Source of the DNA: Pseudoclavibacter terrae
GTDB lineage: Bacteria; Actinomycetota; Actinomycetes; Actinomycetales; Microbacteriaceae
Direction: 5' to 3'
DNA: 64,000 nt
Assembly (NCBI RefSeq): GCF_008831075.1
Contig: NZ_WBJX01000002.1
Span: forward strand, 186,001-250,000
Under the pieces are notes generated by a model. It saw only the letters and a list, made by a program, of their open reading frames with translations. It did no database searches and was not told where the DNA came from. Positions 52,677 through 58,199 of this stretch are shown piece after piece; the first letter of the stretch is position 1, and the number at the start of each line of letters is the position of its first letter. A program made the translations under genes and the position numbers.

Positions 52677-52747
52677 GGGAGTCGACTTCCGTGGAGGTGG
52701 ATGGGGTGGATCGCTGCGTGTCGAGTGCGGTTTGGGTGGGCCGCGGC

Positions 52748-53506
52748 TCAGCGGTAGTAGACGGCGAGCGGGTAGTCGCCGTCGTGGCGCACCTCGATGG
52801 GGGTGCCGAAGACGTGCTCGAGGGTCTCGGTCGTCATGAGGTCCTTCGGGCTGCCGGAGTGCGCGAGCTGCCCGTCGGTGAGGGCGATGATGTTGTCGGC
52901 GTAGGCGGCGGCGAAGTTGATGTCGTGGATGACGATCACGAACGTCTTGCCGAGCTCATCCGCGGCCCGACGAAGCTGGCCCATCATGGCGACGGCGTGC
53001 TTCATGTCGAGGTTGTTGAGCGGCTCGTCGAGGAGGATGTAGTCGGTGTCCTGTGCGAGCACCATGGCGACGTAGGCACGCTGCCGTTGCCCGCCGGAGA
53101 GCTGGTCGAGGTAGCGGTTCTCGAGGGCCGTGAGGTCGAGGAACTCGATGGCCCGGTCGATGTGCTGCTTGTCGTCTGGTGTGAGCCGCCCCTGCGAGTG
53201 GGGGAAGCGGCCGAAGCCGACGAGCTCGCGCACCGTGAGGCGGGTGACGAAGTGGTTCTCCTGGCGGAGGATCGAGACGACCTTCGCGAGGTCGCGGCTC
53301 TTCGCCTTCGTCACGTCGTGGCCGCCGACCGTGACCGTGCCGGTGCTCGCATCCGTCAGCCTGCCGACGATCGTGAGCAGCGTCGACTTGCCGGCGCCGT
53401 TCGGGCCGACGAGGGCGGTGATGCCGCCGGCGGGGATGTCGAGCGTGACGGGCCCGAGCACGGTCGCCTTGCCGTAGGTCTTGGTGACGTTCGAGAGCGA
53501 GATCAC
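52748..53506 (-). CDS. Ferric siderophore ABC importer C, ATP-binding subunit (YclP-like)
   Basis: 252 residues: Walker A GPNGAGKS, Q loop ILRQENHFVTRLTVRELVGFGRFPHSQGRL, signature LSGGQRQRAYVAMVLAQ, Walker B YILLDEPLNNLDMKH. The DTDYILLDEPLNNLDMKHAV and HDINFAAAYAD blocks are those of the YclP/FatE branch, linked to petrobactin or catechol siderophores. GTG 53506 overlaps the TGA of a displaced second copy of the upstream permease tail (53503-53529). Confidence 0.92.
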   Translation of the reverse strand: MISLSNVTKTYGKATVLGPVTLDIPAGGITALVGPNGAGKSTLLTIVGRLTDASTGTVTVGGHDVTKAKSRDLAKVVSILRQENHFVTRLTVRELVGFGRFPHSQGRLTPDDKQHIDRAIEFLDLTALENRYLDQLSGGQRQRAYVAMVLAQDTDYILLDEPLNNLDMKHAVAMMGQLRRAADELGKTFVIVIHDINFAAAYADNIIALTDGQLAHSGSPKDLMTTETLEHVFGTPIEVRHDGDYPLAVYYR

Positions 53507-53567
53507 AGGGCGCCCTTTCGGAGCAGGTAGCTAAGCGGAGTCACAGCGCACCTTTACGTAATAGGTA
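53503..53567. repeat. Duplicated, synonymously recoded gene tail
   Basis: 53541-53567 (minus strand) is the real end of the permease gene and encodes YLLRKGAL-stop. 53503-53529 encodes the same eight residues and stop again, in a different frame, 38 bp further on. All seven differences in 27 bases are synonymous. The first copy uses AT-rich codons (CTA TTA CGT AAA GGT) unlike the rest of the gene, and forms the near-palindrome ACCTATTACGTAAAGGT. Confidence 0.85.
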
Positions 53568-54590
53568 ACAGATGAAGAAGAGGCCGCCGACGAACTCGAT
53601 GATGATCGAGAGGGTGCCGGCCGCGTAGAACACGTGGCGCAGCACGAAGTACCCGCCGAGCAGGGTGAGCATGCCGAGGAGCATCGCGAACGGGATGACG
53701 TGCTTGTGCTGCGACGACCCGGTCAGCTGGTAGGCGAGGGTCGCGACGATGAAGCCGAAGAACGTCATGGGGCCGACGAGGGTCGTCGAGATGGAGATGA
53801 GCACGGCCGTCAGGATGAGCAGCACCGTGACCTTGCGCTTGTAGGCGACGCCGAGGTTGACGGCGGTGTCGCGGCCGAGGGCGAGCACGTCGAGGGTGTT
53901 CCTGGTGCGCCAGATGAAGGCGAGCACGACCGCGATGATGATCGCCGCCCACGGCAGGTACTCGGGGTTCGAGTTGCTGAGGTTGCCGAAGAGCTTCGCT
54001 GAGAGCACGTCGAACTCGCTCGGCGTGAGGAGGCGCTGCATGAACGTCGAGAGCGAGCCGAAGCCCACGCCGAAGACGACGCCGATGAGCAGCATGATGT
54101 GCAGGTTGCCGCGCTTGCCGGAGAAGAGCCACGTGTAGAGCACGGTTGCGAAGCCGACCATGAGGAAGCTCTGCAGGAACACCTTGGGGAGGCCGTCGGT
54201 CGAGGCGAGTGCGGCACCGCCGAGGAAGAACACGAGGGCGGTCTGGAAGACGACGTAGATCGCGTCGAACCCCATGATCGAGGGGGTCAGGATGCGGTTG
54301 CCGGTCGCGGTGTGGAAGAGGACCGTGGCGACGGCCTGGCAGGCGGCGACGATGATGACGGTCGCGACCGTGACGACACGCAGGTTCACGGCGAGCCAGA
54401 AGCCGCGGCTGCCCGGCTCCATGGCGATGTCGTAGGTGAGCACGCCGACGGCCGAGAGCACGACGAGCGCGCCGAGGATGCTGAACCGCAGCCACGGGCG
54501 GGGAGGCTTGGCGGGCTTGGAGGCGTCGCTGACCTTGTCGCCGACGCGGCGGGACGTAGATCTCGGGAAGCGGGGCACGGTGTCAGCCAT
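53541..54590 (-). CDS. Ferric siderophore ABC importer C, FecCD permease (YclO-like)
   Basis: 349 residues, about nine membrane segments: LRVVTVATVIIVAACQAVATVLFHTATGNRILTPSIMGFDAIYVVFQT and TLVGPMTFFGFIVATLAYQLTG mark the YclO branch of FecCD permeases. Its start overlaps the other permease gene by 8 bp. The last nine codons are AT-rich and followed, 11 bp after the stop, by a GC-rich copy of the same tail that would have overlapped the ATPase start. Confidence 0.92.
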   Translation of the reverse strand: MADTVPRFPRSTSRRVGDKVSDASKPAKPPRPWLRFSILGALVVLSAVGVLTYDIAMEPGSRGFWLAVNLRVVTVATVIIVAACQAVATVLFHTATGNRILTPSIMGFDAIYVVFQTALVFFLGGAALASTDGLPKVFLQSFLMVGFATVLYTWLFSGKRGNLHIMLLIGVVFGVGFGSLSTFMQRLLTPSEFDVLSAKLFGNLSNSNPEYLPWAAIIIAVVLAFIWRTRNTLDVLALGRDTAVNLGVAYKRKVTVLLILTAVLISISTTLVGPMTFFGFIVATLAYQLTGSSQHKHVIPFAMLLGMLTLLGGYFVLRHVFYAAGTLSIIIEFVGGLFFICYLLRKGAL

Positions 54591-55596
54591 CGCGCCGCAT
54601 CCGGAGCAGGAGGGTGATGAAGACGGCGGCGCCGACCATGCCGAGGATCATCGAGACGGGCAGCTCGAAGGGCATGCGGATGACGCGGCCGATGATGTCG
54701 CAGACGATGATGATGCCGACGCCGAGCACGCACACCCACGGCAGGTTCGACCTGAGGTTGTCGCCGCGGGCCATGGAGACGAGGTTCGGCACGATGAGCC
54801 CGAGGAACGGAAGGAAGCCGACGACGACGGTCGTGACGCCGGTCGCGATGGCGACGAGCGCGGTGCCGATGAACATGACGAGGTTGTAGTTGACGCCGAA
54901 GTTCGTGGCGATGTCCTTGCCGAGGCCGGCGACGGTGAAGCGGTCGGCGACGAAGTAGGCGATGACGACGATGATGGCGACGATCCACAGCACCTCGTAG
55001 CGGCCGCGCACGACGCTCGTGAAGCTGCCCATGAACCAGGTGCCGAGCATCTGCAGGTAGTTTGTCTCGATCGCGAGCCAGGTGGTGAAGGCGGAGACGA
55101 CGGCGCCGAGCATGATGCCGATGAGGGGCACGATGAGGGCCGAGCGGAGGGCGACTCGGCGCAGCACGGCGAGGAACACCATGGTGCCGATGAAGGCGGA
55201 AGCGCTCGCCATGACCATGCGCGTCGTGAGGCCGGCTGCCGGGACGAGGATGTAGCTCACGAGCAGGCCGAGCGCCGACCACTCGGTGGTGCCCGTCGTG
55301 GTGGGCTCGACGAAGCGGTTCTGGGTGAGGAGCTGCAGGATGAGGCCGGAGACGCTCATGGCGCATCCGGCCAGCACGAGGGAGACGGTGCGGGGGACGC
55401 GGGAGATCCAGATCATCTCGCCGCCGAACTCGTTGCCCGCGATGTCGTAGGCGCCCACGAAGAGGGAGAGCACGGCGAGGCCGAGGACCACCGCGATGCC
55501 AACCGGGAGGGCGCCTCGGCGGTTGAGGAGCGGCACGCGGGGTACGGGAGTGGCCCGCGGCGCCGATGCGGCCGGGGGTGGGGCTGTTGCTGTCAT
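54583..55596 (-). CDS. Ferric siderophore ABC importer C, FecCD permease (YclN-like)
   Basis: 337 residues: ISRVPRTVSLVLAGCAMSVSGLILQLLTQNRFVEPTTTGTTEWSALGLL and VVVGFLPFLGLIVPNLVSMARGDNLRSNLPW are typical of the YclN branch. The start at ATG 55596 is chosen because the frame upstream is antisense-like; it is 125 bp after the binding-protein gene, a gap with no evident signal. Confidence 0.92.
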   Translation of the reverse strand: MTATAPPPAASAPRATPVPRVPLLNRRGALPVGIAVVLGLAVLSLFVGAYDIAGNEFGGEMIWISRVPRTVSLVLAGCAMSVSGLILQLLTQNRFVEPTTTGTTEWSALGLLVSYILVPAAGLTTRMVMASASAFIGTMVFLAVLRRVALRSALIVPLIGIMLGAVVSAFTTWLAIETNYLQMLGTWFMGSFTSVVRGRYEVLWIVAIIVVIAYFVADRFTVAGLGKDIATNFGVNYNLVMFIGTALVAIATGVTTVVVGFLPFLGLIVPNLVSMARGDNLRSNLPWVCVLGVGIIIVCDIIGRVIRMPFELPVSMILGMVGAAVFITLLLRMRRDG

Positions 55597-55721
55597 TCGC
55601 TCGCTGTCATGGGCTGGCGGGCTGGGTGCTGTGCTGTGCTGGGTCTGCTGCGCTGTGCCCCGCCGCCCGGACGACGTGGGGGCGCCTTCCGAGCGGCGGG
55701 GCACAGGGCGGGGTGCGCTGC

Positions 55722-56738
55722 CTAGCTGCTGGCTCCGGCGAACGCCGCGGCGACGTCGGCGTAGAGGCCGGTGTAGGCCTGGATGCCCTCGTCGAGGTAG
55801 AACGTCGGGTCGAGGTAGACGATCTGGTTCTTCTGCACGGCCGGCACGTTCTGGAGGGCCTCGGCGCCTGCGATGAGGTCGGCTGCCGCGGTTGCGCCCT
55901 CTTCGCCGGTGCCGGCGTCGCGGTCGAGCACGATCATCCACTCGGGGTTGGCCTGTGCGATGGCCTCGACGCTGATGTCGTCGCCGTGGGAGGCGTCTTC
56001 AGCGGCCTGGTCGATGGCCGGGGTGAGGCCGATCGTTGGGAAGAGCTGGCCGACGCCGCGGCCCTCGCCCGGTGCCGCGTAGGCGATCTCGCCGCCGGAC
56101 GTGATGAGGCCCACGACCGTGTCGGTGCCGTTGTAGGCGCTCTTGGCGTCTGCGATGGCCGTGTCGAAGGCGGCGATCGTCTCGGCGGCTTCTTCTTCCT
56201 TGTCGAAGATCTGGCCGAGGATCTCGACCTGGCGCTTCAGCTCGCTGGTCGCCTCTTCGCCGTCGCGGGCGTTGATCTCGATCGTGGTCGGCTGGATCGC
56301 CTTGAGGTCCTCGTAGTAGTCCTGGAAGCGGTAGCCGCCGATGATGAGGTCGGGGTCTGCCTCGATGATGGCCTCGAGGTCGGGCTCTCGGTGGAGGCCG
56401 ACGTCGAGCACCTCGTCGCCACCTGCGAGGTCCGGCCAGACGCTCTCCATGAGCGGCTTGGGGGCTGCGACGACGTCGATGCCCCAGTCGCTGAGGGTCT
56501 GGAACGTGGTGTTGTCGAGGGCGACGACTCGCTCCGGGTTCACGGGCACTTCGATCTCGCCGTGGTTGTCGGTGATCGTGACGGTTCCGGATGCTGCTGC
56601 CGCCGCGTCTGCGTCGGCGGCCGGTGCGGAGTCGGCGGGGGCGCATCCGGCGAGCAGGAGCGCCGAGATGGCGAGGAGGCCGGCTCCCTGGATACGTGCG
56701 GCGGTGCGCCGGGTTGGGGCGGTGAGCGTTTTGGGCAT
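55722..56738 (-). CDS. Ferric siderophore ABC importer C, lipoprotein binding protein (YclQ-like)
   Basis: 338 residues. Twin-Arg-free lipoprotein signal with lipobox LAGC, Cys32, after an 18-residue basic leader; mature protein begins with an Ala/Asp linker, then VTITDNHGEIEVPVNPERVVALDNTTFQTLSDWGIDVVAAPKPLM and PDLIIGGYRFQDYYEDLKAIQPTTIEINAR. This is the YclQ/FatB type. First gene of the 48.7-56.7 kb importer array, behind the iron box at 56893-56911. Confidence 0.92.
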   Translation of the reverse strand: MPKTLTAPTRRTAARIQGAGLLAISALLLAGCAPADSAPAADADAAAAASGTVTITDNHGEIEVPVNPERVVALDNTTFQTLSDWGIDVVAAPKPLMESVWPDLAGGDEVLDVGLHREPDLEAIIEADPDLIIGGYRFQDYYEDLKAIQPTTIEINARDGEEATSELKRQVEILGQIFDKEEEAAETIAAFDTAIADAKSAYNGTDTVVGLITSGGEIAYAAPGEGRGVGQLFPTIGLTPAIDQAAEDASHGDDISVEAIAQANPEWMIVLDRDAGTGEEGATAAADLIAGAEALQNVPAVQKNQIVYLDPTFYLDEGIQAYTGLYADVAAAFAGASS

Positions 56739-56892
56739 GGCGGATCCTCGGTTCGGGGATGGGCTGTGCTTCGCGCACAGGTGGTGTTTCGGGCACGGAT
56801 GTGAAGCCGCTGCAGGGGCCGCACGGGCGCTTCGGGGCGGACGGGCCAAGCCTGCGAATCGTGCTGATCATCCAGCGCGACTCGGCTTCGAG

Positions 56893-56911
56893 TAAGGCGA
56901 GCCTATCTTAA
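56893..56911 (-). promoter_or_regulatory. IdeR/DmdR1-like iron box for importers C and B
   Basis: TTAAGATAGGCTCGCCTTA matches 14 of 19 positions of the iron-box consensus and includes a TAGGCT that could be the -10 itself. It lies 155 bp upstream of the YclQ-like gene and about 80 bp from the divergent FUSC gene. Confidence 0.7.
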
Positions 56912-56993
56912 GTTCCGGGGCGGCGTCGGGCGAGGTTGAGCCGAGTTCGGGGGAGAAGTGCCCGGAGCGAGACAGGCGCGAGACAATGGGGTA

Positions 56994-58199
56994 ATGCCTT
57001 CTCCTCGTCCTTCGATGATCCCCGGTTGGCGTGACCTCACGACGATGGGCCCCTACCGCCGAGACCACTGGGTGGCGCTGCGAGTCGCCTTGGCGATCGG
57101 GGTGCCCCTTGTGCTGCTGTGGGCGACCGGGTCGATGCCGCTCGCGATCTTCGCCGTCTTCGGGGCGTTCACGAGCGTCTACGGCCGTGGGCTCAGCGTG
57201 TTCGGACGGTTCCGGATGCAGTCGATCGCGGCGGGTTCGCTCCTCGCGTCGGTCGGGGTGGGCGCCGTCATCGCGTTGTCGCCCGAGCGAGCTCTGCTCG
57301 TGCTGCCCGCTGCGACGGTCTGGGCGTTCCTCATGTCGCTCCTCGGCGACCGGGTGCGGTGGGCTCCGCCAGGGCCGATGTTCCAGATCTTCGCGCTGGC
57401 CGCCATCGCGGCGCTCGCGGTGGGTGGCGAGGTGCTGCTGGTCGGCATCGGTGTCGCGGTTGCGACGGCAGCATGGTCGCTGCTGCTCGGGCTCGCGTTC
57501 GGCGCTGTCGGTGTCGTCGTGGATCGGGCGCGTGCGCGCACCGGGGCCGAGACGTCGGGGCCGACGAGAGCCGCCGCCGCTGGGACCACTGTCGCTGGGG
57601 TCGATCCTGCACGCGCTGGGGCCGCGGATGCTGGTGCTGGTGCCGCGGGTACGGGGCGTTCTGGTCTGGCGCCGGCGACGGGCTCGATTCGGTCGGTGCG
57701 TCCCGTGCGTTCCACGACGGTGGGTCGGGCGGGGATGTTCGCGGTCGGCACCCTGATCGCCGGCGCCATCCCGTTGCTGATCGGCATCGGGCATCCGTAT
57801 TGGGCGATGGTGTCTGCGATCGCGGGGCTGTCGGCGGCGACTGGGTTCCACCGGGTGCTGCGGGCCACGCATCGACTTGTAGGCACCGTGCTGGGTCTTG
57901 GCGTGGCGGCGGTGCTGCTGGCGTTCGAGCCCAGTGGGCTTGTGGTGGTGCTGCTGGTGATCGTCCTGCAGGGCGGAGTCGAGCTCTTCATCGTGCGCAA
58001 CTACACGATCGGGTTGCTGTTCCTGACGCCGCTTGTGCTGGTCATGGGTCGGCTCGCGGGTGACGTCTCTGCGGGCCAGCTGCTGCTGGAGCGCGGAGTG
58101 GAGACGGCCATCGGGGTGGCGGTCGCGATCGGCATCGCGGTGGTGCTCGAGTGGCGGCCGTGGTCGCGCGAGCCGGCGACCGAGACGCAGGCCAGGTGA
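56994..58199 (+). CDS. FUSC-family membrane protein
   Basis: 401 residues. Two membrane blocks (about 30-195 and 255-395) flank a low-complexity Ala/Gly/Thr cytoplasmic segment (ARARTGAETSGPTRAAAAGTTVAG...), as in FUSC/aromatic acid exporter-like proteins; the second block has GHPYWAMVSAIAGLSAATGFHRVLRATHRLVGTVLG. It may export small organic acids. Divergent from importer C with the iron box between, so iron control is possible but not shown. Confidence 0.85.
   Translation: MPSPRPSMIPGWRDLTTMGPYRRDHWVALRVALAIGVPLVLLWATGSMPLAIFAVFGAFTSVYGRGLSVFGRFRMQSIAAGSLLASVGVGAVIALSPERALLVLPAATVWAFLMSLLGDRVRWAPPGPMFQIFALAAIAALAVGGEVLLVGIGVAVATAAWSLLLGLAFGAVGVVVDRARARTGAETSGPTRAAAAGTTVAGVDPARAGAADAGAGAAGTGRSGLAPATGSIRSVRPVRSTTVGRAGMFAVGTLIAGAIPLLIGIGHPYWAMVSAIAGLSAATGFHRVLRATHRLVGTVLGLGVAAVLLAFEPSGLVVVLLVIVLQGGVELFIVRNYTIGLLFLTPLVLVMGRLAGDVSAGQLLLERGVETAIGVAVAIGIAVVLEWRPWSREPATETQAR

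Follow-up and report, generated by a model that had tools for sequence, protein, structure and literature searches.

A 13-codon reading frame at a permease-ATPase junction of Pseudoclavibacter terrae, probably derived by tandem duplication, may relay ribosomes between the two genes

Why should an operon encode the end of one gene twice in succession, and what becomes of the gene that follows? This question is raised by a locus of Pseudoclavibacter terrae (GCF_008831075.1; genome G000) within a 64,000-nt stretch of contig NZ_WBJX01000002.1, referred to here as the window. An initial annotation of this DNA read the doubled gene end as the trace of an insertion, of the kind left by integrating elements at gene 3' ends, that had broken translational coupling between a permease gene and an ATPase gene. 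The features of the junction are as follows.

53541..54590, minus strand: FecCD-type iron-siderophore permease gene (PF01032, E 2.6e-45; YclO-like in the initial annotation), directly upstream of the junction
52748..53506, minus strand: ABC ATPase gene, downstream of the permease (PF00005, E 1.8e-31; the top NCBIfam match is FecE, under its curated cut-off)
53541..53567, minus strand: copy 1, the permease's final eight codons and stop in an AT-rich recoding (from sequence, pattern search, and codon usage)
53530..53540, minus strand: spacer of 11 nt, CTCCGCTTAGC (CTCCGACTGGC in strain AY1H1; from sequence and comparison with that strain)
53503..53529, minus strand: copy 2, a second YLLRKGAL-stop in genome-typical codons, with SD-like CGAAAGGG ahead of the ATPase start (from sequence, pattern search, and codon usage)
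53503..53544, minus strand: relay ORF of 13 codons, VTPLSYLLRKGAL (from sequence; same layout in AY1H1)
53503..53567, minus strand: the whole region, a tandem-like repeat at offset 38 (from self-comparison over 112 offsets)

The permease and ATPase genes are predicted to belong to an importer of the iron-siderophore type, and profile searches identify additional FecCD permeases and periplasmic binding proteins nearby. Read on the minus strand, copy 1 (53567-53541) is TAC CTA TTA CGT AAA GGT GCG CTG TGA and copy 2 (53529-53503) is TAC CTG CTC CGA AAG GGC GCC CTG TGA; they differ at seven of 27 nt, always synonymously. This bears out the initial description of a duplicate gene end 11 bases beyond the permease, as does the overlap of the second TGA with the ATPase GTG, which starts at 53506. 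A degenerate YLLRKGAL-stop pattern, searched with up to three mismatches, matched at exactly two places in the window, well above chance (mean of 0 in 100 shuffles), and copy 1, searched with the same tolerance, has one place in the genome.

What the initial annotation had missed is that the spacer and copy 2 together form an open reading frame, GTG ACT CCG CTT AGC TAC CTG CTC CGA AAG GGC GCC CTG TGA, that overlaps both neighboring genes. Its GTG (53544-53542) lies inside the CTGTGA of copy 1 and shares a 4-nt overlap (GTGA, 53544-53541) with the permease TGA, while its own TGA (53505-53503) shares a 4-nt overlap (53506-53503) with the ATPase GTG, so that the 34-nt gap between permease and ATPase is filled. 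An SD-like AAAGG precedes both GTGs, in P. terrae and likewise in AY1H1. The stop/start overlap of 4 nt or 1 nt by which termination-reinitiation (TeRe) pairs are recognized thus occurs twice in series at this junction, and the break in coupling proposed earlier is nowhere visible.

Reinitiation at gene overlaps is treated in general terms in PMC6728339. The reporter work described in PMC10666635 finds coupling at overlaps to be strongly dependent on distance: a stop-to-start distance of about 20 nt is enough to abolish it almost completely, and the last 15 nt of the upstream gene suffice for reinitiation. Because published coupling is nearly lost at about 20 nt, a 34-nt gap without a relay would be costly. 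In the mechanism that we propose, a ribosome finishing the permease would reinitiate at the overlapping relay GTG, translate VTPLSYLLRKGAL, terminate, and reinitiate once more at the ATPase GTG. Coupling of permease and ATPase therefore appears to be relayed, not broken; we infer from the layout that the relay ORF is translated and keeps the coupling, and such a junction would seem to let a tightly coupled gene pair withstand an insertion in nature.

Comparison with the closest relatives indicates that the 38 bp are indeed an addition, as the initial annotation had supposed. P. helvolus (G001), RFBB5 (G004), and AY1F1 (G006) lack them and have a direct GTGA overlap, and the single-copy gene ends of all three are identical to copy 2 in its last 15 bases. 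The expectation that relatives would have the uninterrupted junction held for these three of the four closest genomes and not for the fourth, AY1H1 (G007), which carries both copies, with much less odd codons. Its homologous 38-bp insert has the identical layout and encodes the relay ORF VTPTGYLLRKGAL; the two spacers have 8 of 11 bases in common, of the four spacer codons that follow the GTG, two have changed amino acid, and the three differences in the codons of copy 2 are all synonymous. The relay also retains the final eight residues of the permease in both species. Since AY1H1 has the homologous 38 bp, the duplication is, on this comparison, neither an artefact nor private to P. terrae. 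An assembly artefact, which the initial annotation had wished to see excluded, has a negligible probability: it is contradicted by the assembly of another species, in which the 38 bp carry substitutions of their own.

The insert is present in two of the five closest genomes (P. terrae included), and a second site was not found in them. In an unrooted tree of the rpoB and recA regions, P. terrae groups with RFBB5 and then AY1H1, against P. helvolus plus AY1F1; the tree of the locus disagrees in places with those of rpoB/recA. If the root lies between the two groups of this tree, a single gain before the AY1H1 split, followed by loss or replacement in RFBB5, would be simplest; if AY1H1 is outermost, as the locus tree suggests, two or more losses would be needed. 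The last 24 coding bases of the permease are identical in RFBB5 and P. helvolus, which would fit replacement in RFBB5.

How did the extra unit arise? Compared with itself at offset 38, the junction is identical at 24 of 34 bases in P. terrae and at 24 of 28 in AY1H1, and in both this offset ranks at the top of the 112 examined. We think it probable that an old tandem duplication of the junction yielded a relay ORF at which ribosomes reinitiate and coupling is kept. The stop/start junction of permease and ATPase would have been duplicated in tandem, as a 38-bp unit, in an ancestor common to AY1H1; the extra unit would have become the 13-codon relay ORF; and the copies would afterwards have diverged synonymously, copy 1 of P. 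terrae most of all. The boundary of the duplication on the ATPase side is unproven because the spacer has no clear match to the ATPase head: at the protein level VTPLS and VISLS are suggestively similar, yet by eye only 4 of 11 bases agree in P. terrae and 2 of 11 in AY1H1. Patchy presence also counts against this explanation, as the sister species RFBB5 lacks the insert and loss or replacement is required there.

The AT-richness of copy 1, to which the initial annotation had drawn attention, is a real codon contrast. Its TTA (53561-53559, minus strand) has no second among 1,639 Leu codons counted in 43 gene-like ORFs chosen from the window, and in 50,000 random draws from window codon usage no score fell as low as that of copy 1; the codons of copy 2 are ordinary (P = 0.54 in P. 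terrae and 0.16 in AY1H1). In AY1H1, the codons of copy 1 deviate only mildly (P = 0.056). Since they are far less unusual there, the AT-richness seems to belong to the P. terrae lineage rather than to an inserted element. At L/R/K/G/A codons, copies 1 and 2 differ at six of seven positions in P. terrae and at four of seven in AY1H1, while synonymous difference between the two species at such codons is 20-40% over six genes of the locus; age alone would predict a few differences between the copies, and six of seven exceeds that number, which also counts against the duplication. For the extreme recoding of copy 1 there is only a partial explanation; release from its former role beside the ATPase start may contribute, as may a survival advantage of repeats that have diverged. 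The core TTACGTAA of the near-palindrome reported in the upstream copy is present in P. terrae and is missing from the homologous copy 1 of AY1H1. A hairpin model based on the near-palindrome was dropped, as folding of the junction gave z scores of -0.19 (P. terrae) and 1.26 (AY1H1), with no unusual stability.

Orthologous permease-ATPase junctions were collected through genus, family, order, class, and Microbacterium searches. The order search matched 169 of 396 genomes (30 loci and 109 further regions taken), the search in Microbacterium 166 of 325 (with 30 loci plus 40 more regions taken), and the class search 32 of 394, so that the survey covers a part of the matches. Nineteen loci (L001, L016, L032-L035, L092-L097, L132, and L260-L265) were set aside as repeats of places already included, wider flanks, or viral or pattern hits. 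Of the 349 loci used, 337 were parsed and 12 were not; with 25 identical duplicates removed, 312 distinct junctions were left, including the distant paralogues L028 (direct) and L031 (extension), with E about 1e-11. A direct overlap was found at 279 of the 312, and one more direct junction (L253, which the motif missed) stands outside that count. Twelve junctions, from about 7 events, carry an in-frame extension of the ATPase from the same overlap, the longest insert of the survey being the 252-255 nt of L200 and L212; in these two the apparent N-terminal extension runs to about 84 residues, partly of low complexity, from an overlapping GTG. Another twelve, from about 8 events, have a relay ORF layout, with inserts of 17-92 bp that are all 2 mod 3 and open. 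Among the nine other junctions, seven have TGACATGA with the start 1 nt past the stop and L231 has a longer overlap, so that in eight of the nine the stop and the start still overlap or lie 1 nt from each other. The ninth, L198, is the sole uncoupled junction of the survey, with a TAG stop and a start codon 32 nt downstream that has its own SD-like AAGGA.

Gaps above 600 nt were unparseable in the survey, and the 12 unparsed loci were therefore inspected individually; as far as they could be read, no insert was found at the junction. L054 and L324 stop inside the permease at a contig end, L253 is the direct overlap already mentioned, and L026, L027, L029, and L030 are distant paralogues. In L101, L102, L103 (genome G003, also entered as L016), L104, and L109, the same permease lacks a following ATPase gene within the stretch compared, and an unrelated convergent ORF takes its place.

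By event, the relay inserts measure 17, 17, 17, 26, 35, 38, 44, and 92 nt. The rows are L108, L248, and L289 (17 nt), L018 (26 nt), four from Microbacterium (35 nt), P. terrae and AY1H1 (38 nt), L074 (44 nt), and L023 (92 nt); for each alone, the chance of an open relay frame lies between 0.47 (92 nt) and 0.91 (17 nt). None of the 15 events (8 relay and 7 extension) is 1 mod 3 (P = 0.0023 under equal phases, post hoc), an absence that is suggestive given that the events are few, their independence is a matter of judgment, and the test was devised after the first cases. Event counts are our own grouping of related rows; the paralogue L031 was left out, the relay count excludes the seven TGACATGA rows, which are 2 nt longer and likewise 2 mod 3, and neither L198 nor L231 is treated as an event. 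More tentatively, and with slightly less than even confidence, we suggest that coupled junctions tolerate inserts mainly in two phases, as an in-frame extension of the downstream protein or as a relay ORF overlapping both neighbors. Relays would then have arisen naturally and independently several times, that of P. terrae included, and would amount to an evolutionary test in which termination-reinitiation across these overlaps proves to be needed.

Duplication may not account for all of these inserts. In L108, CCCTGTGA is repeated at offset 17, the top of 112 offsets, and this insert also resembles a junction duplication; in the other inserts compared (L018, L023, L038, L043, L074, and L248), self-comparison gave no clear duplication signal. 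Tandem duplication is thus well supported by sequence for the junction of P. terrae and AY1H1, not as a general source of relays, and inserts other than these and that of L108 may have arisen differently. The four Microbacterium rows (L038, L043, L307, and L310) share a 35-nt insert with an 11-codon ORF (MLTRSPGRRVP and variants) that overlaps both neighbors; its length is conserved and its peptide is variable. The 92-nt insert of L023 (G005) holds a 31-codon relay frame plus a second possible small ORF, VTRIDPIVLLLRRRPL, with an ATPase-head-like start (VTRIDPIV) and a permease-tail-like end (LLLRRRPL), an SD-like GGAGG ahead of it, and another ahead of the ATPase. This second ORF suggests a junction duplication, yet the self-match at offset 92 is unexceptional, 9 of 111 other offsets scoring at least as high.

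Could the P. terrae junction instead be the scar of an integrating element that bore a recoded gene 3' end, inserted at the permease end, and was later almost wholly deleted? In the case of the e14 prophage at icd, the gene's 3' end is duplicated with synonymous recoding; the layout here resembles such 3'-end integration, and the upstream copy is likewise synonymously recoded, as well as AT-rich and near-palindromic. Unlike at icd, however, neither element nor integrase was found at the junction. There is no integrase among the 10 neighboring proteins (48.7-60.5 kb) and no phage match, four viral 17-mer matches extending by a base or two at most. No element or filled site occurs in relatives among the 312 parsed junctions, and the five genomes without the ATPase have the unrelated convergent ORF. 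The stop-spacer-copy 2 pattern (up to three mismatches) was found once each in P. terrae and AY1H1 and zero times in P. helvolus, RFBB5, and AY1F1; a plasmid search matched 498 records, and among the matches listed the annotated features under the match were importer genes. Moreover, AY1H1 carries the same 38 bp with far less unusual codons, and over window positions 52,706-57,588 these 38 nt are the sole indel of at least 6 nt between P. terrae and RFBB5. With no integrase, phage match, or dispersed repeat in the searches made, the origin favored by the initial annotation is highly improbable.

Recombination could also have brought in the junction, relay ORF included, from the operon of a diverged relative. 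Such an import would account for the recoding in a single step, and it draws on the discordance between locus and rpoB/recA trees and on the seven differences from RFBB5 in the last 24 coding bases of a permease that is otherwise 97% identical where compared. It is nonetheless quite unlikely: P. terrae and RFBB5 are identical for 69 nt on the upstream side of the altered stretch and for 70 nt on its downstream side, limiting the tract to less than about 200 bp and maybe only about 53 nt, and among the 396 genomes of the order, a sample without AY1H1, no donor with a spacer-type junction was found, P. terrae itself being the only case. The duplication might also be a neutral bystander, the ATPase initiating alone from the SD-like element of copy 2 and the frame being open by chance; such an element is present at the ATPase start, and a 38-nt insert in the relay phase is open in about 75% of random sequences. 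Against this stand the near-universal overlap across the survey and the recurrent phase bias, with eight of eight counted events outside frame 0 falling in phase 2, and we consider it possible but unlikely. We therefore retain tandem duplication with a relay as the preferred reading.

Among known systems, the closest in kind are the mycobacterial interspersed repetitive units (MIRUs), likewise short inserts whose ORF shares 4 nt with a flanking gene. As described in a 2025 review (PMC12548453), MIRUs are repetitive and apparently mobile, their ORF is coupled to the neighboring gene at -4 nt, and they are thought to lessen the cost of insertion; the same review notes short ORFs that deliver ribosomes. 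The 38-bp unit differs in looking like a local duplication with one place per genome: dispersed repeats of the MIRU type, sought in P. terrae and AY1H1 with up to three mismatches, gave one place each, a tolerance that more diverged copies would escape. TeRe pairs, as presented in PMC6728339 and PMC10666635, share the NTGA overlap, the subunits of one complex, and the very short stop-start distance, whereas here a 13-codon ORF separates two successive overlaps. In the axe-txe minigene, according to PMC8708949, a tiny ORF acts in cis to raise translation of the next cistron, as the relay ORF would; that minigene has two codons, lies in the toxin gene's leader, and is not built from the end of the upstream gene. 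No description of relays formed by junction duplication was found in the openly licensed literature, which is weak evidence of absence.

What appeared to be an insertion scar thus becomes evidence on how strict the hand-over of ribosomes between genes may be. Junction duplication is suggested as a simple local route to a layout known from the repetitive MIRUs. Annotation pipelines likely skip relay ORFs, which span 6-31 codons in this survey. Should insertions between overlapping genes persist chiefly as relays or in-frame extensions, the junctions at which coupling is essential could be located by comparative genomics alone.
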